A stretch of 32,388 nt of DNA from the NCBI GenBank assembly GCA_009930415.1, contig RZYG01000008.1, positions 1-32,388 on the forward strand, written 5' to 3'. A program made the position numbers and the translations under genes. This document shows, in pieces, positions 16,116 to 31,577 of this stretch. Numbering within the stretch: position 1 is the first letter of the stretch; each line of letters opens with the position of its first letter. The notes under the pieces are model-generated. The model saw only the letters and a program-made list of their open reading frames with translations, was not told the origin of the DNA and searched no databases. This DNA is from Spartobacteria bacterium (GTDB taxonomy: Bacteria; Verrucomicrobiota; Kiritimatiellia; CAIQIC01; Lenti-01).

Positions 16116-16145
16116 TTGACGGAAAACGGCCGGTGCGCCTATACT
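16116..16145 (+). promoter_or_regulatory. Sigma70-like promoter driving the PilM/secretin operon
   Basis: TTGACG-18 bp-TATACT; preceded by a small palindrome CGTCA-AAA-TGACG (16102-16114). Confidence 0.55.
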
Positions 16146-16209: not shown

Positions 16210-16821
16210 ATGATGAATCGATCCGTTCGGTCCAAGGTGGGGTTCGGGATGGCGCTGTTCGCCGCGGTGGGTCTGCTGGCCGGAACGGCATTGGCGCAAA
16301 TGGCTTCCGCCGCCGCAGGCGGCTCCGACGTCCTGCGCATCCGCAAAATGGCGCCGGTGCCGAACACCAAGACGCCGGTGTTCCGGACGGCGACGGCCAG
16401 CCAGGCTTCGGCGAAGCAGCCGGACTGGTGGCGCGTGATGGTGGAATTCGAAACCGCGCCGGACTGGGTCGACGAACTGGAATTCACCTACTACGTCTAC
16501 ATGAAGGACCAGAGCAACAAGGGCGCGGAAATGATGTTCCGCGGCGCGGTCACCTACGTGAACGTCGCCAAGGGCCGCCACTACAGCGACATGTTCCTGC
16601 ATCCGAGCACGCTGGCGCGGATGGGCCGGGTGGAGCAGGTGGCCGTGGTCGTCAAGGCCAAGGGCGCGGTGGTCGCGACGGAATCCACCGCCCAGACGGC
16701 CAACTGGTGGGACCGGTTCGCCCCGATCGACGGCGTGCTGCTGAACCGCGCGCAGACCCCGTTCGCGTTCGTGGACTACGATTTGTACGAGCAGATCAAG
16801 CCGGCCGCCGCCGCGCGGTAA
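16210..16821 (+). CDS. Exported Amuc_1102-like protein (first gene of the PilM/secretin operon)
   Basis: Signal peptide GMALFAAVGLLAGTALAQ; WWRVMVEFETAPDWVDELEFTYYVYMKD; position directly upstream of pilM. Confidence 0.7.
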   Translation: MMNRSVRSKVGFGMALFAAVGLLAGTALAQMASAAAGGSDVLRIRKMAPVPNTKTPVFRTATASQASAKQPDWWRVMVEFETAPDWVDELEFTYYVYMKDQSNKGAEMMFRGAVTYVNVAKGRHYSDMFLHPSTLARMGRVEQVAVVVKAKGAVVATESTAQTANWWDRFAPIDGVLLNRAQTPFAFVDYDLYEQIKPAAAAR

Positions 16822-16846
16822 CATTCGCAGCGAAGGACTTCCTTCC

Positions 16847-18541
16847 ATGGCCAAAAAGCCCATCCTGACGTTGGACATCGGTTCGCACAGCCTCAAGCTG
16901 GCGGAGTTCGTCGAGGTGAAGGGCGGGTTGGAAATGACCCGCTACGCCGTCAGCGACCTGGGGGTCGATCCCCAGAGCGATGCCGACCGCTCGCAGTACA
17001 TCATCACGACCATCCACGACCTGATCCGCGAGTCGGGCTGCAAGCCCGGTCCGGTGCAGGTGGCCATTTCCGGCCACGCGGTGTTCTCGCGGTTCGTCAA
17101 GCTGCCGCCGGTGGAGCCCGAGAAGGTCTACCAGATCATCCAGTACGAAGCGCAGCAGAACGTGCCGTTCCCGATCAACGAAGTGGTCTGGGACTACCAG
17201 CTGATCAGCGGCGCGACGGGCGACGTGGACGTGATGCTCGCGGCGATCAAGTCGGACATCATCGAAGGCATCAGCGACTGCGTGCGGTTCACCGGGCTGG
17301 AACCCAGCCTCGTGGACGTGGCGCCGATGGCGCTCTACAACGCGGTGCGCTACAACTACGACAACCTGCCGCCCTGCACGCTGGTGGTGGACATCGGCGC
17401 GCGCTCGACGGACCTGGTCTTCCTCGAGGCGGGCCGCGTGTTCAGCCGCAGCGTGCCCGTGGCCGGCAACCAGATCACCCAGGCGATCATGAACGAGTTC
17501 GGCATCTCGTTCGACGACGCCGAGGCGATGAAGAAGGCCCACGCCTACGTGGCCTTCGGCGGCGCCTACGAAGGCCCCCAGAGCGAGACGGTCGACAAGG
17601 TGTCCAAGAGCGTGCGCATCATGATGACGCGCCTGCACCAGGAGCTCAACCGCTCGATCAATTTCTACCGCAGCCAGCAGGGCGGCCAGCAGCCGGCGCT
17701 GCTGCTGCTGACCGGCGGCAGTTCGGTGATTCCCTACACCGACACGTTCCTCAAGGAAAAGCTGGGCGTGGAGACGGATTACTTCAATCCGTTCAACAAC
17801 GTCGCGGTCTCGGAGCAGATCCCCGCCGACCAGGTCGGCGCGCACGCGTGCGAAATGGGCCAGCTGGTGGGCTTGGCCCTGCGCCGGATGCACACCTGCC
17901 CCATCGAGGTCAACCTGCTGCCGCCCAAGGCGGAGGAAGAGAAGAAATTCAAGCGCAAACAGCCGCTGTTCGCGCTGGCGGCGGCGGGCCTGCTGGCGAC
18001 GCTGCTGGTGTGGGCGGCGTTCTACGTCCGCATGTCCGGAGCGGCGGAGCGCGTCCGCGCCCGCATTGAAAACCGCGTCGGCGAACTCTCCGGCGTGGAA
18101 CGGCAATTGCAGGGCGTCGAAGCGTCCGTGGCGGAAGTGGAGAACCAGATCGCCGCGCTGGCCGCGCTCGAATCGCACCGCGGGGTCTGGCGCGGCCTGC
18201 TGGGCGCCATCAGCGCGCCGCTGCCGGAAGGCATGTGGCTGACCCGGATCCGGCCGCTGGCGCAGTTGCCCGGCGCCGTCGCTCCGGCCGCCGAAACGGC
18301 CGCGGAACCGGCTCCGGCCGCCGCCGGCACGGCCCGCTCCGTGGTCGGCATCGAAATCGAAGGCATGGGCTACCAGGATCGGATCAAGAGCGAAGCGGTC
18401 GGCAAATACCGCGACCAGCTGCGCGAAGCGAAATGGTTTTCCGAGCAGACGGAAATCATCTGGCAGCCGCCGGCGCGCTCGGATGCCGCCACGCTCGAAT
18501 TCAAGATCCTGGCCGTTTTGAAGGAGCCGCAGGCACTATGA
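16847..18541 (+). CDS. pilM: PilM-type ATPase fused to a C-terminal PilN/GspL-like membrane segment
   Basis: ILTLDIGSHSLKLAEF...VQVAISGHAVFSRFVKLPPVEPEKVYQIIQYEAQQNVPFPINEVVWDYQ...LVVDIGARSTDLVFL; CPIEVNLLPPKAEEEKKFKRKQPLFALAAAGLLATLLVWAAFYV. Confidence 0.93.
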   Translation: MAKKPILTLDIGSHSLKLAEFVEVKGGLEMTRYAVSDLGVDPQSDADRSQYIITTIHDLIRESGCKPGPVQVAISGHAVFSRFVKLPPVEPEKVYQIIQYEAQQNVPFPINEVVWDYQLISGATGDVDVMLAAIKSDIIEGISDCVRFTGLEPSLVDVAPMALYNAVRYNYDNLPPCTLVVDIGARSTDLVFLEAGRVFSRSVPVAGNQITQAIMNEFGISFDDAEAMKKAHAYVAFGGAYEGPQSETVDKVSKSVRIMMTRLHQELNRSINFYRSQQGGQQPALLLLTGGSSVIPYTDTFLKEKLGVETDYFNPFNNVAVSEQIPADQVGAHACEMGQLVGLALRRMHTCPIEVNLLPPKAEEEKKFKRKQPLFALAAAGLLATLLVWAAFYVRMSGAAERVRARIENRVGELSGVERQLQGVEASVAEVENQIAALAALESHRGVWRGLLGAISAPLPEGMWLTRIRPLAQLPGAVAPAAETAAEPAPAAAGTARSVVGIEIEGMGYQDRIKSEAVGKYRDQLREAKWFSEQTEIIWQPPARSDAATLEFKILAVLKEPQAL

Positions 18542-19557
18542 ACCGCAAACACATGCCCTTGCTGGCGGGGGGCGTCGTCGCCTTGCTGCTGGCCGTGGGC
18601 CTTTTCTTCTGGTTGTTCAGCGCACGGGGCCGCTACGCCGAGGGCTTCTCGAAGCTGTCGTCGTCCCAAAGCCAACTGCAGCGCCTGACCAACCGGACCA
18701 CGTTCCCGTCGCCCGGCAACGTGCAGGCCATGGAGAAGCAGCTCGGCATCTACCGGGAATATCTGGAAGGCTTGAAGGCGGCGATGAAGAAAGGGCAGCG
18801 GGCCGCCGAGACCATCACGCGCGACCGCTTCCGCCAGTTGCTCGAAGACACCCTCCGCCAGCTGGCCAACGACGCCCGCCAGAAGGGCGTGGTCCTGCCC
18901 GCCAATTTCGCGTTCGGGTTCCAGCGCTACGCGGAAGGCGTGCTGCCGGCCGAGGAGGAAATGAACCGGCTCGTGGACCAGCTCTACTCGGTGAAAAGCC
19001 TGTGCGAGATCCTCTACGAAGCGGGCATCGGCGAATTGGTCGCGGTCGAGCGCACGACCTTCGAGAAGGACGCCCAGACCGCGCCGGTCGAGGAAGAATA
19101 CGGCCGGCGCAGCGCCCGCGCCCGGACCGAACAAGCCGTCGCCGCGCCCGGCGTCGAGTTGGAGGCGGACCCGCTGGGCCTGCATACCCGGGAACATTAC
19201 GTGCTGTCCTACAAAGCCCAGGACGAGGCCACCTGGCGCGTGCTCGACCGCCTCGCCCAAGGCGCCCCGTTCGTCGTGGTGACGAAGGTGGAAATCGTCA
19301 ATTCCGCCCGCCCCGCGGTGCTCGTGCCGGCCGCGGCGCCGAAGCCGGCGGCCGCGGCGCCGAAGCCGACGTCCGTCGCCGGCTGGCAGGCGCCCGGAGC
19401 CGCGACGCCCCTGGCCGCCGAAGCGCCGGAAATCCTGCCGCGCGAATTGCGCATCGTCGCCGGCCAGGAATGGCCCAACGTCCGCCTTGAAGTGGACTTC
19501 TACCGCTTCGTCGAACCCGCCGCCGAGGAGGTTGCGCAAGGGGAGGAACATCCGTGA
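18538..19557 (+). CDS. Amuc_1100-like inner-membrane protein (PilO-like position)
   Basis: One N-terminal TM; RFRQLLEDTLRQLANDARQKGVVLPANFAFGFQRY...LYSVKSLCEILYEAGIGELVAVER...GQEWPNVRLEVDFYRF; 4-bp ATGA overlap with pilM. Confidence 0.75.
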   Translation: MNRKHMPLLAGGVVALLLAVGLFFWLFSARGRYAEGFSKLSSSQSQLQRLTNRTTFPSPGNVQAMEKQLGIYREYLEGLKAAMKKGQRAAETITRDRFRQLLEDTLRQLANDARQKGVVLPANFAFGFQRYAEGVLPAEEEMNRLVDQLYSVKSLCEILYEAGIGELVAVERTTFEKDAQTAPVEEEYGRRSARARTEQAVAAPGVELEADPLGLHTREHYVLSYKAQDEATWRVLDRLAQGAPFVVVTKVEIVNSARPAVLVPAAAPKPAAAAPKPTSVAGWQAPGAATPLAAEAPEILPRELRIVAGQEWPNVRLEVDFYRFVEPAAEEVAQGEEHP

Positions 19558-20654
19558 GCCAGGCACCCCGTGGGAAAAACGATTGGATCCGGAACCATTA
19601 CGAGAAAATGATTCTGCTGGCCGCGCTCGTGGCGCTGCTGGTCTCCTGCATCCTGCTCACCCAGCGGATCCAGGCGGACAAGGACGCCGCCAAGCCGGCC
19701 TTGGCGCGCATCGACTGGAAGGGGTCGTCCGTCGCGCCCAAGGACACGCTGGCGCTCGACGGCGTTCTGGTGGCGGCCCGCGCGGAAGCCACCAATGCCC
19801 TCGCCGTGGCGGCGCGCACCACCGTCAGCGAACGGCGCGTGGCCTGCGTCAAGTGCGGCAAGCCCATCCGCTTCGAAGCGGCCGAATGTCCGTTCTGCCT
19901 CGCGGCCCAGCCCGCCATCGTGGACATTGAAAAGCTGGACACCGACGGCGACGGGATTCCCGACAAGGTCGAACTGGCCTTGGGACTCGATCCGCAGAAT
20001 CCGTCCGATGCCGCCGGCGATTTGGACAACGACGGGTTCACCAACCACGAAGAACTCAATGCCAAGACGGATCCCAAGGATCCCGCGGACTTCCCGGATC
20101 CCATCGTCAAGCTGCGCGTGGCCGGCATCCGCCCCGTGCCGTTCTATCTGCGGTTCGTCACCACGTCCACCTTGGGCGACGGCTCGATCCGCTTCCAATT
20201 GAACCTGCAGACGCTGGAGCGCACCTACTTCGTGAAGCCCGGCGACGTGGTGCTGGGCTACAAGGTCGAGAACTACAACCCGGCGGGGCCGGCGGGCGAG
20301 ACCATCACCATGGTCCGCCAGTCCGACAAGCGGCCCGTCGCGCTCGTCAAGGGCAAGCCCGTCACCGAGCAGGAACTGGCCATCTTGTTCGTTTCCCTGA
20401 TCGACAAGCAACGCCTGCCCGTCCAGCGGCTTAACGACGTCTTCGCGTACCGCGGCGCGGATTACAAGGTCGTTGACATCCGCCGCGATAACGTAGTAAT
20501 TCAAAGCGCGAAAACCGGCGAAAAAGTGACGGTTCCCCTGTGGACTCCCGAAGAGCGGGCGACGATGCTGGGCCAGCCGAGCGCACCGGCGCCCGCGGCG
20601 GGTGCCGCTCCCCAGGCGCCGGCGGCGGCCGCCGCGGCCTCATCGGTGTGGTGA
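19554..20654 (+). CDS. Membrane-anchored protein with zinc-ribbon-like motif and thrombospondin-type-3-like Ca repeats (Amuc_1099 position)
   Basis: TM LLAALVALLVSCILL; CVKCGKPIRFEAAECPFC; DTDGDGIPDKVELALGLDPQNPSDAAGDLDNDGFTNHEEL; GTG start in a 4-bp GTGA overlap. Confidence 0.8.
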   Translation: MSQAPRGKNDWIRNHYEKMILLAALVALLVSCILLTQRIQADKDAAKPALARIDWKGSSVAPKDTLALDGVLVAARAEATNALAVAARTTVSERRVACVKCGKPIRFEAAECPFCLAAQPAIVDIEKLDTDGDGIPDKVELALGLDPQNPSDAAGDLDNDGFTNHEELNAKTDPKDPADFPDPIVKLRVAGIRPVPFYLRFVTTSTLGDGSIRFQLNLQTLERTYFVKPGDVVLGYKVENYNPAGPAGETITMVRQSDKRPVALVKGKPVTEQELAILFVSLIDKQRLPVQRLNDVFAYRGADYKVVDIRRDNVVIQSAKTGEKVTVPLWTPEERATMLGQPSAPAPAAGAAPQAPAAAAAASSVW

Positions 20655-20743
20655 TTTAGCAAATGACGGTTAGCGACAACAAGACGTTGGATCGGACGAG
20701 GAAATCCCTTCGTCCTCGTTTCAGTTCCAAGGAGGAATCCCAG

Positions 20744-23700
20744 ATGAAATGGTGCATGGTTGCGGCGATGGCGGTGTCTTTCTTGTGCGGTGGCATGGCG
20801 TTCGCCCAGGACGACGATTTCGATCTGGATGCCCTGCTGGGCGACGTGGGGACGGCCGCCGAAGCGCCCGCCGAAGCCGCCGCGCCGGCCGCGGAAGAAG
20901 CGGCCGCGGAAGCGGTCGCCGCCGTTGAACCGGCCGCGGAAGAAGCGGTCGCGGAAGCGGCGGAAGTCGCCGAAGCCGCCGCCGATCCGTTCTCCGATTT
21001 CGCCGCCGAAGAAGCCGCGCCGGCCGCCGAAGAAGCCGCCGCCGACCCGTTTGCCGGCCTCGAAGCCGAGGAAGCCGCGCCCGCCGCCGAGGAGCCCGTC
21101 GCCGAAGCCGCCGCCGATCCTTTCGCCGAAGAAATGGCGCCCGCCGCCGAAGAAACCGCCGCCGTCGCCGAAGAAGCCGCTGCCGATCCGTTCGCCGAAG
21201 CCGCCGCCGAAGAAGCCGCGCCGCTGGCCGAGGAGAGCGCGGCCGATCCGTTCGCCGAGCTTGAGGCCGCCCCGGCCGCCGAAGAAGCCGTGCCCGCCGC
21301 CGAGGAAACCGCTCCGGCGGCCACGGACGATCTCCTGGGCGATCTGTTCGCCGAAGAACCCGCCGTCGAAGAAGCCGCTGCGGAAGCCGATCCTTTCGAG
21401 GAAGCCGCACCCGTCGCCGAAGAAGGCGCCGGAGAAGCGCTGGAAGCCGATTTCACCGATCTCGGCGGCGAACTGGATGCGGCCCCGGCCGCCAAGAAGG
21501 CCGGCAAAGAGGCCGAAAAGATGGACCCGGCGGAACTCAAGAAAATCGCCAAGGAAACCGCCCGCCAGGAAGAAATCCGCCGCCAGGCCGCCGAAGTGGA
21601 TGCGCTGAAGGCTTCCGATGCCGGCTTCGCCGCCCTGAGCCAGGGCGACTACGTGGCGGCCGAAAAGTCGCTGGCCGACGCCCTGAACGGTCTGCCGGAC
21701 CGTCCCCAGAACGTCCCCGTGCGCGACCAGATCGCCAAAGGCCTGGCCGAAGTCCAGTATCTGCGCGCCTACGGCATGGTGAAGAAGAACGAGCGCCTCG
21801 AAGAAGCCCGCAAGCTCGTCGATGCCGCGTTGAAGAACGACTCCGGCCATCGCGGCGCCAAGGCTCTCGACAAGCGGCTGTCCAAGCTCGAAATCCTGGC
21901 CGGCAAGCCCAAAGCGCCCGCCGACCAGCCCGCCACCCTCGAAAAGGCCAAGAGCATCGAGCAGATGTACGACGAGGCCCGCGAGTGGTACATGCTCAAG
22001 GACTACGACCGCGCCAAAGCCCTGTTCGAGCAAATCCTGATCCGCGATCCCTACCACAAGAGCGCCATGCGCTACATCCGCAAGCTCGAAGCCGACAAGT
22101 TCAAGCTGGCTTCCGTCGAGCGCGAAGCCCGCGTCCAGGGCATGATGACCGAAGTCCGCCGCAGCTGGAGCCCGCCGATCCGCGCCGCGATCGCCATGCC
22201 CGAAGACGCCGGCCAGCCCGGCGGCGTCGACAGCAAGCCGTCCTCGCAGCGCCTGCAGGACAAGATGAAGACCATCGTCATCCCGGCGGTCGAATTCCGC
22301 CAGGCCAACATCAACGACGTCGTCAACTTCCTGGTCGAAGCCAGCATGGCCGCCGACCCCGAGAAGGAAGGCGTCAACATCATCCTGAACCTCGGGCAGG
22401 GCGGCGGCGGCGCGGCTCCCGCGCCGGGGCCGGCGGCGGCGCCGGTCGTGGACGAGTGGGGCTTCGGCGGCGAAGACCTTGGCGGCGGCATGGCCATGGT
22501 CTCTGCTGCGCCTGCCGGCGTGCGCGACATCACCCTCAACCTGCGCCGCATCAGCATGCTCGACGCCATCAAGTACATCACCGAAGTCGCCGGCCTGAAG
22601 TACCGCATCGAAGACAGCGCCGTCATCATCACCCCGATCGACGCGCCGACCGGCAACATCATCACCCGCATGTATCCCGTCCAGCCGTCCTTCATCGACG
22701 TCGTCGTCGAGCGCCAGGGCCCGACGGCCGAAGAGCGTTCGGGCGCCGAGTTCACCTCCATGAGCGACCGCGTCTCCGTCACCAAGGGCGACGTGAAGGA
22801 ATTCTTCGAGAAGACCGGCGTGAAGTTCCCCGTCGGTGCCTCCATCACCTACAATTCCAGCATCAGCCAGCTGATCGTCGCCAACACGGCCGACAACCTC
22901 GAGACCTTCGAGCGCATCCTCCAGCAGCTGAACGTCGTGCCCAACCAGGTCGAAATCGAAGCCCGCTTCATCGAAGTGGACCAGGGCGATCTCGAGGAAC
23001 TCGGCCTGCAGTGGATCCTGAACGACAACTACGAGTTCGCCACCAAGAACGACGGCTCCGGCGAACGCCTCCAGGTCAACGCCAACCGCAACGGCGTGAC
23101 GCAAGGCAACCGGTTCTTCAACTACAACTCCGGCAACCTGAACATCCAGCCGGCGTCCATGATCACCCAGACCGCGAACCAGACCATGCTCGGCGGGCTC
23201 CTCAGCGCCTCGAGCGTGCTGACGAATCCGGAAGTGACGGTGGTTTTGCAGGCGCTCTCGCAGCACGGCGGAACCGACTTGCTCTCCGCCCCGCGCGTCA
23301 CCACCCGCAGCGGCGTCAACGCCCAGATCCAGGTCGTCAAGGAAATCATCTATCCCACCGAGTTCGACGTGACCCAGCCCACCATGAATTCGGACGGCAA
23401 CGTGACGATGTCGCCCGTCGTGACCCCCGGCACCTTCGAAACCCGCGAGACCGGCGTGATCCTCAACGTCACCCCGACCGTCGGCCCCGACGGCTACACG
23501 ATCGACCTCGTGATGGCCCCCGAAGTCGCCGAGCTCGTCGATTGGATCCAGTACGGATCCCAGATCACCGTGGAGACCGGCATCATCGGCGCCAAGCAGC
23601 AGAACACCTATCTGTTCAACATGCCGCAGCCCATCTTCACCAGCCGCAACGTCACGACGTCGATCGTGATCTGGGACGGCCAGACCGTCGTCATGGGCGG

Positions 23701-23944
23701 CCTGATCCGCGAAGAGCTGACCACGATCAAGGACAAGATTCCGATCCTCGGCGACATCCCGCTGCTGGGCTGGCTGTTCCGGTCGGAAGGGCAGTATAGC
23801 CAGAAGAAGAACCTGCTGATCTTCGTGACCGCCCGCCTGGTCGATCCCGCCGGCCGCCCGATCCACAGCGAGGGCAGCCTGGCGATGCCGGGCACCGGCA
23901 TCGAAACCGAGCCGGCGGATGCCGCCGCGCCGGTGACGATGTAG
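20744..23944 (+). CDS. Secretin (type II/III secretion / type IV pilus family) with acidic Ala/Glu-rich N-terminal extension
   Basis: MKWCMVAAMAVSFLCGGMAFA signal; QVEIEARFIEVDQGDLEELGLQW; LSAPRVTTRSGVNAQIQVVKEIIYPTEF; PILGDIPLLGWLFRSEGQYSQKKNLLIFVTARLVDPAGRPI; AAGGAGG RBS at 20729. Confidence 0.95.
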   Translation: MKWCMVAAMAVSFLCGGMAFAQDDDFDLDALLGDVGTAAEAPAEAAAPAAEEAAAEAVAAVEPAAEEAVAEAAEVAEAAADPFSDFAAEEAAPAAEEAAADPFAGLEAEEAAPAAEEPVAEAAADPFAEEMAPAAEETAAVAEEAAADPFAEAAAEEAAPLAEESAADPFAELEAAPAAEEAVPAAEETAPAATDDLLGDLFAEEPAVEEAAAEADPFEEAAPVAEEGAGEALEADFTDLGGELDAAPAAKKAGKEAEKMDPAELKKIAKETARQEEIRRQAAEVDALKASDAGFAALSQGDYVAAEKSLADALNGLPDRPQNVPVRDQIAKGLAEVQYLRAYGMVKKNERLEEARKLVDAALKNDSGHRGAKALDKRLSKLEILAGKPKAPADQPATLEKAKSIEQMYDEAREWYMLKDYDRAKALFEQILIRDPYHKSAMRYIRKLEADKFKLASVEREARVQGMMTEVRRSWSPPIRAAIAMPEDAGQPGGVDSKPSSQRLQDKMKTIVIPAVEFRQANINDVVNFLVEASMAADPEKEGVNIILNLGQGGGGAAPAPGPAAAPVVDEWGFGGEDLGGGMAMVSAAPAGVRDITLNLRRISMLDAIKYITEVAGLKYRIEDSAVIITPIDAPTGNIITRMYPVQPSFIDVVVERQGPTAEERSGAEFTSMSDRVSVTKGDVKEFFEKTGVKFPVGASITYNSSISQLIVANTADNLETFERILQQLNVVPNQVEIEARFIEVDQGDLEELGLQWILNDNYEFATKNDGSGERLQVNANRNGVTQGNRFFNYNSGNLNIQPASMITQTANQTMLGGLLSASSVLTNPEVTVVLQALSQHGGTDLLSAPRVTTRSGVNAQIQVVKEIIYPTEFDVTQPTMNSDGNVTMSPVVTPGTFETRETGVILNVTPTVGPDGYTIDLVMAPEVAELVDWIQYGSQITVETGIIGAKQQNTYLFNMPQPIFTSRNVTTSIVIWDGQTVVMGGLIREELTTIKDKIPILGDIPLLGWLFRSEGQYSQKKNLLIFVTARLVDPAGRPIHSEGSLAMPGTGIETEPADAAAPVTM
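20855..21500 (+). repeat. Low-complexity Ala/Glu repeat region with recurring ADPF motifs in the secretin
   Basis: Repeated EEAAPAAEEAAADPFA units; GCCGAAGAAGCCGC-type DNA repeats. Confidence 0.85.
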
Positions 23945-24218: not shown

Positions 24219-25138
<920 letters not shown>

Positions 25139-25142
<4 letters not shown>

Positions 25143-27268
25143 CGACGAAAGTCTCCAGATGGATCGGGATCGCCCTCCAGCTCTTGCTGGTGGCGGGGTT
25201 GACGTTCCTGGCCGGCGCCACGCGCCGGCACGTGCTCGACGCCCAGCGGCAGTTGACGGCGGACGGTTCGATTCCCTTCACGCTGGAGAGCGCGCTGGCC
25301 TTCCGCCGCATCCAGCTGGTCTATCGCGACGGCGATTTGCCGAAGATCGACCAGGGGATCCAGTATCCGCACGGCGTCGTGACGCGCGAAACGGATACGC
25401 TGGGCGTCGAGCGGATCTATGCGCGCGTGGCCAAGCTCTGGCCCGGCACGCTCCCGCTGGCCGAAAAGATCCGCGGACTGCATCTGGCGTGGTTCTGCCT
25501 GGCGATTCCGGGGATGTTTTTCTGGGTCAAATGGATGGGCGGGGGCGCCGCGGGCGGGTTCTGGGCGGCGGCGTTCTACGCGGTGGCGATTTCGGCCGTG
25601 GCGCGCGCGACGGGCCAGGAGCTGTCGCACGAGAACAACGCGTTGCCGCTGCTGCTCGGCCATCTGGCGGCGGCGGCCTGGGCGCGCAACCGCGCCCAAC
25701 GCTTCCGCGCGAAAGCGGTCGCCGGCTGGATTTCCGCCGGCTTGGCGGCTCTGGCCTTGTGTGCCTGGGACATGGTCCAATTTTACTTGCTGCTGTTGCT
25801 GGGCTGGGAACTGGCCGTCGCGATCCGCGGCGAACTGTCCAAAGAAGATCTCTGGGCGCGCGCCGTGCCGTTGATGGCCGCGCTGGTGGCGGCGGGCCTG
25901 CGCAATCCGTATCTGCGGGCGCACGGGTTCCTGGTTGCGCCGACGCTGGCGCTGGGGTGGGGGATGCTGCTGGCGGGCGCGCCCGCCGCGCAGCGGCAGC
26001 GCGTCGCCACGCGGGTCGTGCTGGGCTTGCTGCCGCTCGCCGGGTGTCTGGCGCTGGCCCATTTCTATCTGCCGGCTTACGGCCATTTCGGATCGCTCCT
26101 CTGGGCCAAGCTGCGGTTTTTCAATGTCCGGCCCGAAAATCCCGCGCTCTTGACGTTCGAACAGCGGATCCTGTGGGCGCCGGCGCTCAATTCCACCTCG
26201 TGGGCCCTCCTCTGGGAGTGGTTTCCGTTCCTTTTGGTGTTGACGGCCGCCGCGGTTTGGGGTTTGATGCGCGGCACGGTTCGCAACCGCACCGAGTTCG
26301 CCGATTTTCCCCCTCTGCTTTTCTACCTGCTGGCGTCTCTGGCCGCTTTCATCCTGTTTTTCCGGTTCCACGTGTGGCTGGCGATCTTCGCCTGCGGAAT
26401 CGTCGGCCTGTGGGCCGGGCAGTGGAAGGCGAGCGGCGGCCGCTGGACCCGCGGGGCGCTCGCGGCCCTGCTGGTCTTCGGGTGGCTCGCGGAAGCGCGC
26501 CAGCCGTGGTTCGGGCCTTTCCGCTGGGAGGAATCGCCCGTGGAAACCCCCGGCGCGCCGAAGTGGGACGGTCCCCTGTACTGGGGCCGTCCGAACGTGT
26601 ACGCGGCGGAAACGGAAGCGTTGATGGACCATTTGCGGAATTTCGTCGCCCCGGAACCCGTGCTGGCGAATTTCGGGATCAGCGCCGGGATCGCGGCCTA
26701 CGGCGGCTGCCCCGTGGTGCTGCATCCGAAGTTCGAGTCGGCGGACATCCGCCTCCGGGTGCGGGAATACGGCGAGGCGCTGTTCACGGGCGGCGAAGCG
26801 GAGTTCCGCGACTGGATGGAGGCGCACGGCGCCACCGTCTACGTGCATTCGATGGGCGAGTTTTCGGAGATCCAGCCGGGCCTCCAGATGCGCTACATGG
26901 TGGATGCGCTGGACCCGGCGACGAACGCCGCGGCGCGGCTGTTCGAGCAGCGGCCCGAAGAGTTGAAGCACTTCGCGCCGCAGTTCGCCAACCGGAAGTA
27001 CCGCGTGTTCCGGCTGAAGCGCAGCCCCGTGGCCGCGCGCCTGGCGGAAGCGCTGGCCGAGCAGGCCCGCGCGGCCTTGGAAGCCGGCGAACTGGCGGCG
27101 GCGGAGACGAAAGGCGCCCATGCCTTGCGCATGGACGCCGACAACGAGGAGGCGCAGGCGATCCTGCGCCACGCGACGGCCCTGCGGGATGCGGGTTTCC
27201 GCGCGGAGGAAGACGAAGACTGGACCGGAGAAGCGTCGTCGCTGGCGCCGACCCGCCCCTGGCCCTGA
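25139..27268 (+). CDS. Multi-pass membrane protein, probable GT-C-type (STT3/DPY19-like) glycosyltransferase
   Basis: Many TM segments; ESALAFRRIQLVYRDGDLPKIDQGIQYPHGVVTRETDTLGVERIYA; long soluble C-terminus; proposed TTG start overlapping the exonuclease stop (TTGA). Confidence 0.6.
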
Positions 27269-27270
27269 GA

Positions 27271-27876
27271 ATGAAAAAAGGATTTTGCGCAGCCTTGACC
27301 GGCGGAATCGCCTGCGGGAAAAGCACCGTGGCCGAATTCTGGCGGCAATGGGGCGCCGCGGTGCTGGACGCCGACCACGTGGCCCACGCGCTCATCGCCC
27401 CGGGCGGCGAGTGCGTGGAGGCCGTCGCGCGCGAGTTCGGCGACCGCGTGCGCGCCGTCCAGGGCGGCATCGACCGGCGGGCGCTCGGCGCGATCGTGTT
27501 CGCGGACACGAGCGCTTTGGAGCGCCTGAACCGGTTGCTGCATCCGGCCGTGATCCGCCGGATGCGCGCCTGGGCGGACGGTATCCGCCGCGCCGGCCAA
27601 GTCGGCGTGGCGGTGGTTCCGCTGCTGTACGAGGCCGGCATGGAAAAAGCCTGGGATGCCGTGGTCTGCGTGGCCGCCCGGGAAGAGACGATGCTGGCCC
27701 GGTTGGCCGCCCGCGGCCTATCGCCCGCCGCGGCGCGGGCGCGGATCGCCAGCCAATGGCCGGTGCGCGAAAAAATGGCGCGCGCCGACCGCGTGATCGA
27801 CAACGACGGCGACCGGACCGAACTGGAAAAACAGTGCCGGGCGATTTGGAACGATTTGTTTGAACAAGGAGAATGA
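27271..27876 (+). CDS. coaE: Dephospho-CoA kinase
   Basis: [79 protein letters not shown]. Confidence 0.95.
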
Positions 27877-27877
27877 C

Positions 27878-29806
27878 ATGGCCCCGAACCCCAAGAACCC
27901 CCGCCAACCCCGCCCCCCCCGCAAGCCCAATTCCGGCGGCGGCGGCCGCTCCCGCGGCCGGCCCCGCAAGATTGCGGACGATGAGACGCCGAAGCGGTCG
28001 AACATGCCGCTGCCGGCTTCGCTGCTGGACACCACCATTTCCGACGGCGAAGAGTATCGTCCGGGCACGTATGGCGGTCCCGCCGCCGAAGAACCGCGCG
28101 GCGATGCGCCCGAGCGCGGCAACGAAGCCGTGCCGCCGCCGCGAGCCTTCGTGCCGCAGGAAAGCCGCGAAAGCGAACCGCCGCCGCCACGCCCGCCGCA
28201 ACAAGACCAAAACCAAGGCCCGGACCAAGGCTCAGACCCAGGCTCGGACCAAGGCCAGCCCCAGGGGCAGGGGCAGGGGCAGGGGCAAGGGCAGGGACAG
28301 GGACACAACGGCTATGCCGGGCACAACCGTCCGAACTATCCCCAGCACCAGGGGCAGGGCGGTGGCCGCCACGACCGCTATTTCGACCGCAACCGCGACC
28401 GTCGTCCCGGCGGCGGCGGACAACCCTTCCGCGACAACCGCCCGCCGCGCGTGCCGCTGACGCCTGAAGAACAGGCCGCGCGCGACGCCCAGCTCGCCGC
28501 GCAACGCGCCGCCGCCGAGGCCGCCGCCGCCGAACGCGCCAAGATGGCCCGCGTCCTCAAGCTCAACGAGCTCCAGCTGCTCACCGTGCCGCAGCTCAAG
28601 GAACTGGCCGACAGCTACCAGCTCGTCGATCTCGGCGCCCTCAAGAAGCACGAGCTGATCTTCGAGATCCTCAAGGCCAACGCCCGCTGCAACGGCACCA
28701 TGTTCGTCCGCGGCGTCCTCGAAATCCTCCCCGACAACTTCGGGTTCCTGCGCTCGCCCAACAACAACTACCTGCCGTGCCCGGACGACATCTACGTCTC
28801 GCCTTCGCAGGTCCGCCGCTTCGCGCTGCGCACCGGCGACATCGTGGACGGCGAAATCCGCTCGCCCAAGGACAAGGAGCGTTTCTTCGCGCTCCTGAAG
28901 GTCAACAGCATCAACGACGGTCCGCCCGAGGGCCAGCGCGGCATCATTCCCTTCGAAAACCTCACGCCGCTGTTCCCCGACAAGCGCCTCGTGCTCGAAA
29001 CCAAGAGCGCCAACAACGTCAACATGCGCGTCATGGACCTGCTGACGCCCATCGGCAAGGGCCAGCGCGGGCTGATCGTGGCCCCGCCGCGCACCGGCAA
29101 GACCGTCCTGATGCAGATGATGGCCAACAGCATCTCCGAGAACAATCCCGAGGTGAAGCTGATCATCCTGCTGATCGACGAACGTCCCGAGGAAGTCACC
29201 GACATGGAGCGCAACACGCAGGCCGAGGTCATCGCCTCCACCTTCGACGAGCCCCCGGAGCGCCACGTGCAGATCGCCGATCTCGTCATCGAGATGGCCA
29301 AGCGCCAGGTCGAAGCCGGCAAGCACGTCGTGATCCTGCTCGACTCCATCACGCGCCTGGCCCGGGCCTACAACACCCTCCAGCCGCACAGCGGCAAGAT
29401 CCTCTCCGGCGGCGTGGACGCCAACGCGCTGCACAAGCCCAAGCGCTTCTTCGGCGCCGCCCGCAACATCGAGAAGGGCGGCAGCCTCACCATCATCGCC
29501 ACCGCGCTGGTGGACACCGGCAGCCGCATGGACGAAGTGATCTTCGAGGAGTTCAAGGGCACCGGCAACATGGAGATCTGCCTGGACCGCTTTCTCGTGG
29601 ACAAGCGCATCTTCCCGGCCATCAACATCGAGAAGTCCGGCACCCGCAAGGAAGAGCTGCTGATGCATCCCGACGAGCTCAGCCGCGTCTGGATCCTGCG
29701 CAAGGCCCTCAACGGCGTGCCCGCCGTCGAAGCGATGGAACTGCTGATCGGCCGTCTGAAGAAAACGAAGACGAATCTTGAATTCCTGATGACCTTGCAG
29801 GGATAA
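27878..29806 (+). CDS. rho: Transcription termination factor Rho with a long disordered N-terminal extension
   Basis: [79 protein letters not shown] upstream of ATG 27878. Confidence 0.96.
28263..28308 (+). repeat. Short tandem hexamer repeat (CAGGGG)n coding for poly-GQ in Rho
   Basis: caggggcaggggcaggggcaggggcaagggcagggacaggga encodes [14 protein letters not shown]. Confidence 0.85.
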
Positions 29807-29813
29807 TGGCTCC

Positions 29814-31577
29814 ATGACCTCGCTGGGCATGCACGTTCCGATGGGCCGCGAGGCGCGCCAGCCCTGGGTGCGCGCCGCGCTCTTCGCGGCCGCGCTGGCG
29901 CTGTCCGCGCTGCTGCACGGCGCGCTGCTCGTCGGGCTGCCGCCGCTGCCCGCCTGGCGCCCGCCGGAGGCCGCCCTGCGGCGGCCGGTGCGCCCGCTCG
30001 TGCTGGCCGAGGTCCGCGCTGCGCCCGACCTGCCGGGTTTCGCCCAGCCGGAAAAATTCCGGCCGGAGAATCCCGAGGCCTTCGCCGACGTCGAGCCCCT
30101 GCAGAAAAACCTGCTCGAAGACCTGCGCGCGGAAGCCGAGGCGCTGGAATTCGTGCCGCCGGCGCCCGCCGAGGCCGCCGCGCCCTTGCCGGCGCCGCCT
30201 GCCGATCTGGCCGGCATGGATTTCCGCCAGGACATCCTCGAGATCGAGAACCAGGTCGTCGCCGCCGAGTTGGCGGCCCTGCCGCGCCGGCTGTCGCCGG
30301 CGCTCGACCGCGTGGCCGGCGCGCCGGACGTGACCTTGCCGGCCACGGCCGACGCCATCGCGGCGGCGGCCGCCGCCGCGGACGGCCGCGGCGACGGCTC
30401 CCTGCGGCCGCTGTCCGTCCTGTCCCAGGCCGTGCCGTCCGCCAAGGACATGATCGCCGCCGCCAACCAGGGCGAGCTCTCCGCCGCCGACCGCCTGCGC
30501 GAACAGGGGGCCATGCTCGACGAGGCCCCGGCCGACGTCACCGACGTCCAGCCCATCGAGCAGCTGCTGGCCGTCGAGGTTTCGACCTATCGCGCGGCGG
30601 ACGAAGAGGCCCTCTATTTCGAACTGGCGATCGCGCGCGCGGGGGTCGAGGCTTTGCCGGTGATTCCCAAGGACGTCCTGCTCGTTCAGGACTGCTCCGA
30701 AAGCATCACCCGCACCAAGTTGGACTACTTCAAGAACGGCCTGATCGACTATCTGCGCACGCTGACGACCGTGGACCGCGTCAATCTGATGCGTTACAGC
30801 GATTCGCCCACGCTGTGCTTCCCCGACTGGCAGCCGGTCACCGCCGACTCGCTGGAACAAGCCGCGGACTTCGTCGACGACATGCGCGCGCGCGGCCAAA
30901 CCGATCTGTTCGCGCCCCTCCAGCAAGTGCTCAAGCTGCCGCGCGCCGCCGGCCGGCCGATGGTCGTCGTGCTGCTGACCGACGGCCGTCCGACGATGGG
31001 CACGGTGGACAGCTCCGACATCATCGCGCGCTTCAGCAAGCTCAACGCCGGCGAAGTGTCCGTTTTCACGGTCGGGGCGGGGGACCGGGTGAACACGTTC
31101 TTGCTGGACCTGTTGGGCCACAACAACCGCGGCGGATCCTGGATCATGCCCCTGCGCGAGCAGATTCCCGACGCGGTCAAGCGCGCCGCCCGCGAACTGT
31201 CGCGGCCCGTGCTGGCGAACCTGGAATACCGGTTCTCCGGCGACTCCGCGGCCGAGGTGTATCCCGGCACGCTGACGCACCTCTTCCTCGACCGGCCGTT
31301 GCGGTTGGTGGGGCGCTGCCCGCTGGGCCAGCAGACGGCGGTTCTGCAGATCATCGGCGAATCGGGCGCGCAGAAACGCGACATGGTTTTCGCGCTCGAT
31401 TTGTCCGAGGCCGAAGACGGCGGCGAGGGCCTGCGCCGCGAGTGGGTGGCCCAGAAGATCTACAAGCTGATCAACGACCATCTCGCCAGCGGCCGTGCCG
31501 GGACCATCCAGCAAATCCGCGACCTGTCTATCCGGCACAACGTGCCCTTGCCCTACGGCGCCGACTTCCCGTTGTGA
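29814..31577 (+). CDS. VWA-domain protein with N-terminal TM and Ala/Pro-rich linker
   Basis: MIDAS-like VQDCSESIT (DxSxS), [24 protein letters not shown]-terminal [26 protein letters not shown] resembling TonB-type anchors. Confidence 0.87.

Follow-up and report, generated by a model that had tools for sequence, protein, structure and literature searches.

A five-gene locus of a Kiritimatiellia bacterium related to the Akkermansia muciniphila Amuc_1102-1098 cluster probably encodes a type IVa-like pilus alignment module and secretin

Introduction

In Akkermansia muciniphila, the genes Amuc_1102 to Amuc_1098 form a cluster (MUL2) whose link to type IV pili was previously known, and the labels PilQ for Amuc_1098 (PMC4960237) and PilO for Amuc_1100 (PMC11573778) have already been published. 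In a published survey the cluster was found in Verrucomicrobiales and to a lesser extent in Chthoniobacterales, but not in Methylacidiphilales; the main text of that survey makes no mention of Kiritimatiellia (PMC13174399). Two other described systems resemble it, the pilMNOPQ set of type IVa pili (Pseudomonas, Myxococcus, Thermus) and the GspL-GspM-GspC-GspD set of the type II secretion system (T2SS). Here we describe a row of five genes at positions 16210-23944 of a 32,388-nucleotide stretch of DNA (contig RZYG01000008.1, assembly GCA_009930415.1; the whole stretch is called the window below) from a Spartobacteria bacterium assigned to the class Kiritimatiellia. The operon represents the Akkermansia Amuc_1102-1098 (MUL2) cluster in Kiritimatiellia. 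Its products very probably make up the alignment module of a type IVa-like pilus in the inner membrane and the secretin in the outer membrane. A preliminary description made from the sequence alone had called the locus a conserved, poorly characterised envelope machine of the Planctomycetes-Verrucomicrobia-Chlamydiae bacteria. The envelope machine is retained here and sharpened to a type IV pilus alignment module with its secretin, and conservation was found within Verrucomicrobiota, the scope surveyed.

Results

The five genes were co-directional on the + strand. From 5' to 3' they encode an Amuc_1102-like exported protein of 203 amino acids (16210-16821), a PilM-PilN fusion of the Amuc_1101 family of 564 amino acids (16847-18541), an Amuc_1100-like, PilO-like protein of 339 amino acids with one transmembrane (TM) segment (18538-19557), an Amuc_1099-like, PilP/GspC-like one-TM protein of 366 amino acids read from a GTG start (19554-20654), and a secretin of the Amuc_1098 (PilQ) family (20744-23944). 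All five open reading frames were verified, codon-position GC bias was consistent with real genes on the + strand, and chance open reading frames as an account of the row were ruled out by homology. The reading frames and Pfam agreed with the gene row as first described (small exported protein, PilM-PilN, one-TM protein, one-TM protein with Zn-ribbon and Ca repeats, secretin), and the single TM segments lay where they had been placed. The middle three genes were joined, also as described, by 4-bp stop/start overlaps, ATGA at 18538-18541 (+) between the pilMN and 1100-like genes and GTGA at 19554-19557 (+) between the 1100-like and 1099-like genes. An ATGA/GTGA overlap at the first junction was retained in 23 of 25 scored relatives, so the overlaps are not a matter of chance. 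A fusion of the 1100-like and PilM genes, considered for GC-rich loci of the L036 type, was rejected: the long open frame was a different reading frame overlapping pilMN, the ATGA overlap was intact and there was no true fusion.

In NCBIfam, the five products had their best matches in the families Amuc_1098, 1099, 1100, 1101 and 1102; the curated cut-offs were passed for Amuc_1099 and 1102, and the scores for Amuc_1098, 1100 and 1101 fell below them. The A. muciniphila locus (L103) was located by its Amuc_1100 at 100% identity, and the region was fetched for direct comparison. Its genes stood on one strand in the order 1102-1101-1100-1099-1098, the same as in the window, and 4-bp overlaps were present at the same two junctions (L103 9398-9401 and L103 8415-8418). 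Protein identity between the two loci was low. The likeness to Amuc_1098-1102 proposed in the preliminary description is borne out by the five families, by the direct comparison and by the identical order and overlaps.

The PilM-PilN product matched Pfam PilM_2 (2.2e-45, 155 bits) and TIGR01175 pilM (162.9 bits, above the cut-off of 133), and no GspL family was among the reported matches of its cytoplasmic domain. Its best NCBIfam match was Amuc_1101 (2.3e-154, 515.5 bits; cut-off 650). In profile comparisons it matched Myxococcus PilM (3jc8_Ma, 2.4e-52) and PilN (3jc8_Na, 8.2e-7 over columns 354-477), and a crystallised PilM-PilN construct (5eou) was matched across the junction (7e-33). An actin-like PilM domain with conserved nucleotide-site residues is followed by a TM segment at about residues 374-392, a coiled coil and a PilN-like periplasmic domain. 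The INLLP-type motif is the site at which PilN docks on PilM, and it persists as the linker of the fusion in the form VNLLPP at about residue 356. Compared by hhalign with the PilN of a sister clade locus (L107), the PilN half gave no signal.

The 18538 product, likened to Amuc_1100 in the preliminary description, matched solved Amuc_1100 (6lad) at 4.7e-6 and the NCBIfam Amuc_1100 family at 3.8e-35 (121.8 bits; cut-off 180). It is built from an N-terminal TM segment, a long coiled coil and an alpha/beta periplasmic domain. When its AlphaFold2 model (pLDDT 74.8, pTM 0.57) was searched with Foldseek, ten Amuc_1100 chains ranked first (best E about 1e-9), and the first other matches were PilO, from Myxococcus (3jc8_Oa, prob 0.96, E 5.7e-3) and Pseudomonas (2rjz, prob 0.90, E 5.1e-2). 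In one relative (L032:3146-4214, and genome G012) the 1100-like frame was broken near residue 285, by either an error or a real frameshift.

The 19554 product exceeded the cut-off of the NCBIfam Amuc_1099 family (73.8 bits; cut-off 50). It consists of an N-terminal TM segment, a Zn-ribbon, two full TSP3 Ca repeats (Pfam TSP3_bac, 8e-12) and a C-terminal beta domain; Amuc_1099, by contrast, lacks a CxxC pair and carries a single Ca motif. The C-terminal domain of its AlphaFold2 model (pLDDT 84.8) was superposed by Foldseek on Pseudomonas PilP (2y4y) with prob 1.00, a root-mean-square deviation of 2.4 Å and TMt 0.66 over 71 columns. The Zn-ribbon (19848-19899, residues 99-115) was lost in 6 of 26 aligned homologues (L047 and the L041-L045 group), which retain at least one Ca-binding TSP3 motif.

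The Amuc_1100 and Amuc_1099 families appear to be equivalents of PilO and PilP. Because of this, a match to ordinary PilO or PilP, which had been set against a likeness to Amuc_1100, is only half an alternative.

For the secretin, the start at 20744 was preferred over 20663 because it is preceded by AAGGAGG and followed by a signal peptide. After the signal peptide come an alanine/glutamate-rich stretch, a weak tetratricopeptide repeat and the secretin domain (PF00263, 2.5e-37). The best NCBIfam match was the Amuc_1098 family (2.7e-159, 531.8 bits; cut-off 750), and the closest solved relatives were PilQ 6w6m (5.5e-21) and GspD 5wln (2e-20). The alanine/glutamate-rich stretch (20810-21520, about 230 amino acids) lies antisense to part of a 1249-amino-acid open frame. 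A fourth secretin of the same genome, of 799 amino acids, was found on contig C4 (L087:9085-11481, - strand); it matched the operon secretin profile at 4.9e-44, nearer than the secretins of the T2SS-type clusters, and no further operon gene was detected on the fetched stretch. In a distant Verrucomicrobiota relative (L104:8154-13535, +), two tandem Amuc_1098-type secretins stood behind the 1099-like gene.

The first gene was confirmed as Amuc_1102-like by its match to solved Amuc_1102 (7dsz; 1.6e-7 with phmmer and 8.7e-18 with a profile) and by an Amuc_1102_rel score of 76.1 bits, above the cut-off of 55. The product carries a signal peptide and has no prepilin motif.

Linkage of the operon to a pilus motor was observed in two relatives. 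In G181 (L111), the genes ran on one strand as gatB-pilB-pilT-pilB-pilC-1102-pilMN-1100-1099-secretin. The block in G050 (L110) was alike, except that pilC and the 1102-like gene were separated by three genes, two of which bear prepilin N-methylation motifs. In the window's own genome, pilB and part of pilT lay on contig C269, and the remainder of a pilT, together with pilB and pilC, on contig C319, with no alignment module beside these motor genes; in a same-genus genome (L108), pilB-pilT-pilB-pilC formed a single run. No second full PilM was present in the window's genome, the only other PilM-like gene being a weak, GspL-like one in the T2SS-type cluster of contig C460, and the operon PilM was the only PilM_2 match in six genomes at least 94% complete. 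In clade f15 of the same class (G040, L107:10672-15449, +), split genes for PilM, PilN, a GspM/PilO-like protein, a PilP-sized protein and a PilQ-like secretin followed the pilM-N-O-P-Q order and adjoined prepilin-like genes; the 1100-like profile found no 1100-like gene there. Prepilin-like genes were also present about 15 kb 5' of the operon in the window, one of DUF1559 type (131-754, -) and one of T2SSG type (896-1279, +).

These data bear on whether the operon could instead be a T2SS (GspL-M-C-D) that exports enzymes and forms no surface pilus. The fusion has the layout of GspL, the TM anchor of the 1099-like protein resembles that of GspC, weak GspM and GspC matches were obtained, and in NCBIfam the secretin scored slightly nearer GspD (168 bits) than PilQ (139 bits). 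The cytoplasmic domain, however, scores as PilM, separate clusters on contigs C460 and C76 of the genome combine secretins with GspE/GspF-like genes, and the gene next to which the operon lies in the two relatives includes, within its block, pilT for the retraction ATPase, a hallmark of type IVa pili. A T2SS is therefore considered unlikely. A second proposal is that the operon encodes a channel dedicated to polysaccharide or glycan uptake, assembled from borrowed pilus parts and independent of a pilus. It draws on reports that A. muciniphila requires MUL genes to accumulate mucin products internally, as given in the passages of PMC12418764 and PMC13174399 that cite Davey 2023. Such a channel is highly improbable given the pilB-pilT-pilB-pilC and prepilin genes that adjoin the operon in relatives and the conserved nucleotide-site residues of PilM. 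Uptake could be a pilus-driven function, so that the proposal is partly compatible with a pilus.

The distribution of the operon was surveyed in Verrucomicrobiota genomes. The 1100-like profile matched 187 of 388 sampled genomes, and this gene, taken as the operon marker, was present in 115 of the 131 genomes of the window's class. Outside the class, more diverged 1100-like genes were found in 72 of 257 genomes. This figure is a minimum, since the profile derives from the window's class and the genomes listed as matched include none of the genus Akkermansia (g80), although Amuc_1100 itself as query found all eight g80 genomes tried. The named relatives were mostly metagenome bins labelled 'Kiritimatiellae', 'Lentisphaerae' or 'Verrucomicrobia', and these labels point to Kiritimatiellia as the class surveyed. 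Wherever a named locus was long enough to reveal it, the five-gene order was kept, although the 1102-like gene was not detected in three loci (L043, L045 and L047). That the cluster is not restricted to gut mucin degraders, as had been suggested, was upheld by its presence in other lineages. In the literature searched, we found no description of its near-universal presence in Kiritimatiellia, of the motor-linked versions, or of explicit readings of Amuc_1101 as PilM-PilN and of Amuc_1099 as PilP-like.

The same distribution bears on the view that the Amuc_1100-like protein is no PilO-like scaffold but a component exposed at the surface, either of the pilus or for host signalling. Immunofluorescence located Amuc_1100 at the exterior of A. 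muciniphila cells, and the purified protein was TLR2-active (PMC5332112). Against this view, the N-terminal TM segment leads into a coiled coil, the fold neighbours are PilO, the gene sits between those for PilN and PilP, and the family is found across a class of bacteria other than Akkermansia, most of them uncultured; the labelling could stem from exposure in damaged cells or in vesicles. A surface component is very unlikely on these grounds.

The genes 3' of the operon were also compared. The secretin is followed by a gene for a 5'-3' exonuclease (24219-25142, +; Pfam 1.1e-45), a conserved neighbour outside the machine that lies directly 3' of the secretin in 19 of 29 named loci. Next are a Dpy19-like membrane protein, possibly a glycosyltransferase (25145-27265, +; match 2e-10), coaE for dephospho-CoA kinase (27250-27876, +, start approximate; PF01121, 2.6e-46), rho (27878-29806, +; Pfam Rho_RNA_bind, 5.3e-32) and, directly 3' of rho, a von Willebrand factor A-domain protein (29814-31574, +). 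In A. muciniphila, coaE (L103 3871-4533) and then rho likewise stand 3' of the secretin; in contrast to the A. muciniphila locus, the window has the exonuclease and Dpy19-like genes between the secretin and coaE. The common coaE-rho flank suggests that the operon and its flank have been inherited vertically since before the split of the two classes. On the 5' side, a motif scan gave a promoter-like site, TTGACG-18-TATACT, at 16116-16145 (+), 65 bp 5' of the first gene; with one site found against 0.7 expected by chance, it is only suggestive.

Discussion

The operon is most likely a pilM-N-O-P-Q operon in remodelled form. It shares this canonical order with the type IVa systems, its PilM and PilN being recognized by sequence and its putative PilO and PilP by fold. 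It differs from them in that PilM and PilN are fused, PilP is replaced by a TM-anchored Ca/Zn protein, an extra Amuc_1102-like gene stands in front, and the 1100-like protein, at 339 amino acids, is larger than the local split-type PilO-like protein of 198 amino acids. With the T2SS it shares the layout of the PilM-PilN fusion, a TM-anchored PilP/GspC-like protein and a secretin; it differs in its PilM-type cytoplasmic domain and its linkage to pilT in relatives, and the genome's T2SS-like clusters are separate. In the proposed machine, a cytoplasmic nucleotide-binding PilM would be joined to PilN through the retained INLLP-type motif, the Amuc_1100-like protein would take the role of PilO, and the Amuc_1099-like protein would take that of PilP/GspC, connecting the complex in the inner membrane with the secretin gate. 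The Amuc_1102-like protein, of immunoglobulin fold, may be an exported accessory. A PilB-PilT-PilB-PilC motor encoded elsewhere in the genome would power extension and retraction. We infer that the parts assemble and that a pilus is made, which would probably serve in attachment to, or capture of, glycan-rich particles.

Several findings weigh against this interpretation. The fusion and the TM-anchored PilP-like protein recall GspL and GspC, and the secretin is slightly nearer GspD. The 1100-like model is only moderate in quality and its Foldseek E-value with PilO is weak, while the match of the 1099-like domain to PilP had an E-value of only 0.19 and ranked 45th. By hhalign, neither the 1100-like profile against one local split-type PilO-like protein nor the 1099-like profile against one local PilP-sized protein (both L107) gave a signal, and the PilO and PilP assignments therefore rest on fold and position. 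Only two genomes, both of one genus, showed the operon adjacent to the motor, and co-occurrence with PilT adds no information since PilT was over its cut-off in 373 of 388 genomes. The reported outside location of Amuc_1100 is at odds with an inner-membrane PilO (PMC5332112).

The glycan uptake role reported for the Akkermansia genes, as far as the passages cited above describe it (PMC12418764, PMC13174399), is compatible with a pilus. One could go further and suppose an ancestral glycan-harvesting pilus of Verrucomicrobiota, in which retraction would drag bound polysaccharide through the secretin and into the periplasm, the Ca- and Zn-binding PilP-like protein and the Amuc_1102-like protein would be adaptations for handling substrate, and 'selfish' glycan uptake in this phylum would be pilus-driven; we regard this as unlikely.

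Amuc_1100 has been studied as a probiotic, TLR2-active surface protein. Taken together, the locus, the folds and the pilB-pilT-pilB-pilC linkage in relatives indicate that it most likely serves as a scaffold part inside a pilus machine, a PilO-like member of the inner-membrane platform. This interpretation predicts where native Amuc_1100 should be located and which mutants should share its phenotype. Since a whole class of bacteria other than Akkermansia, most of them uncultured, has the cluster, host signalling is unlikely to have been its original role.

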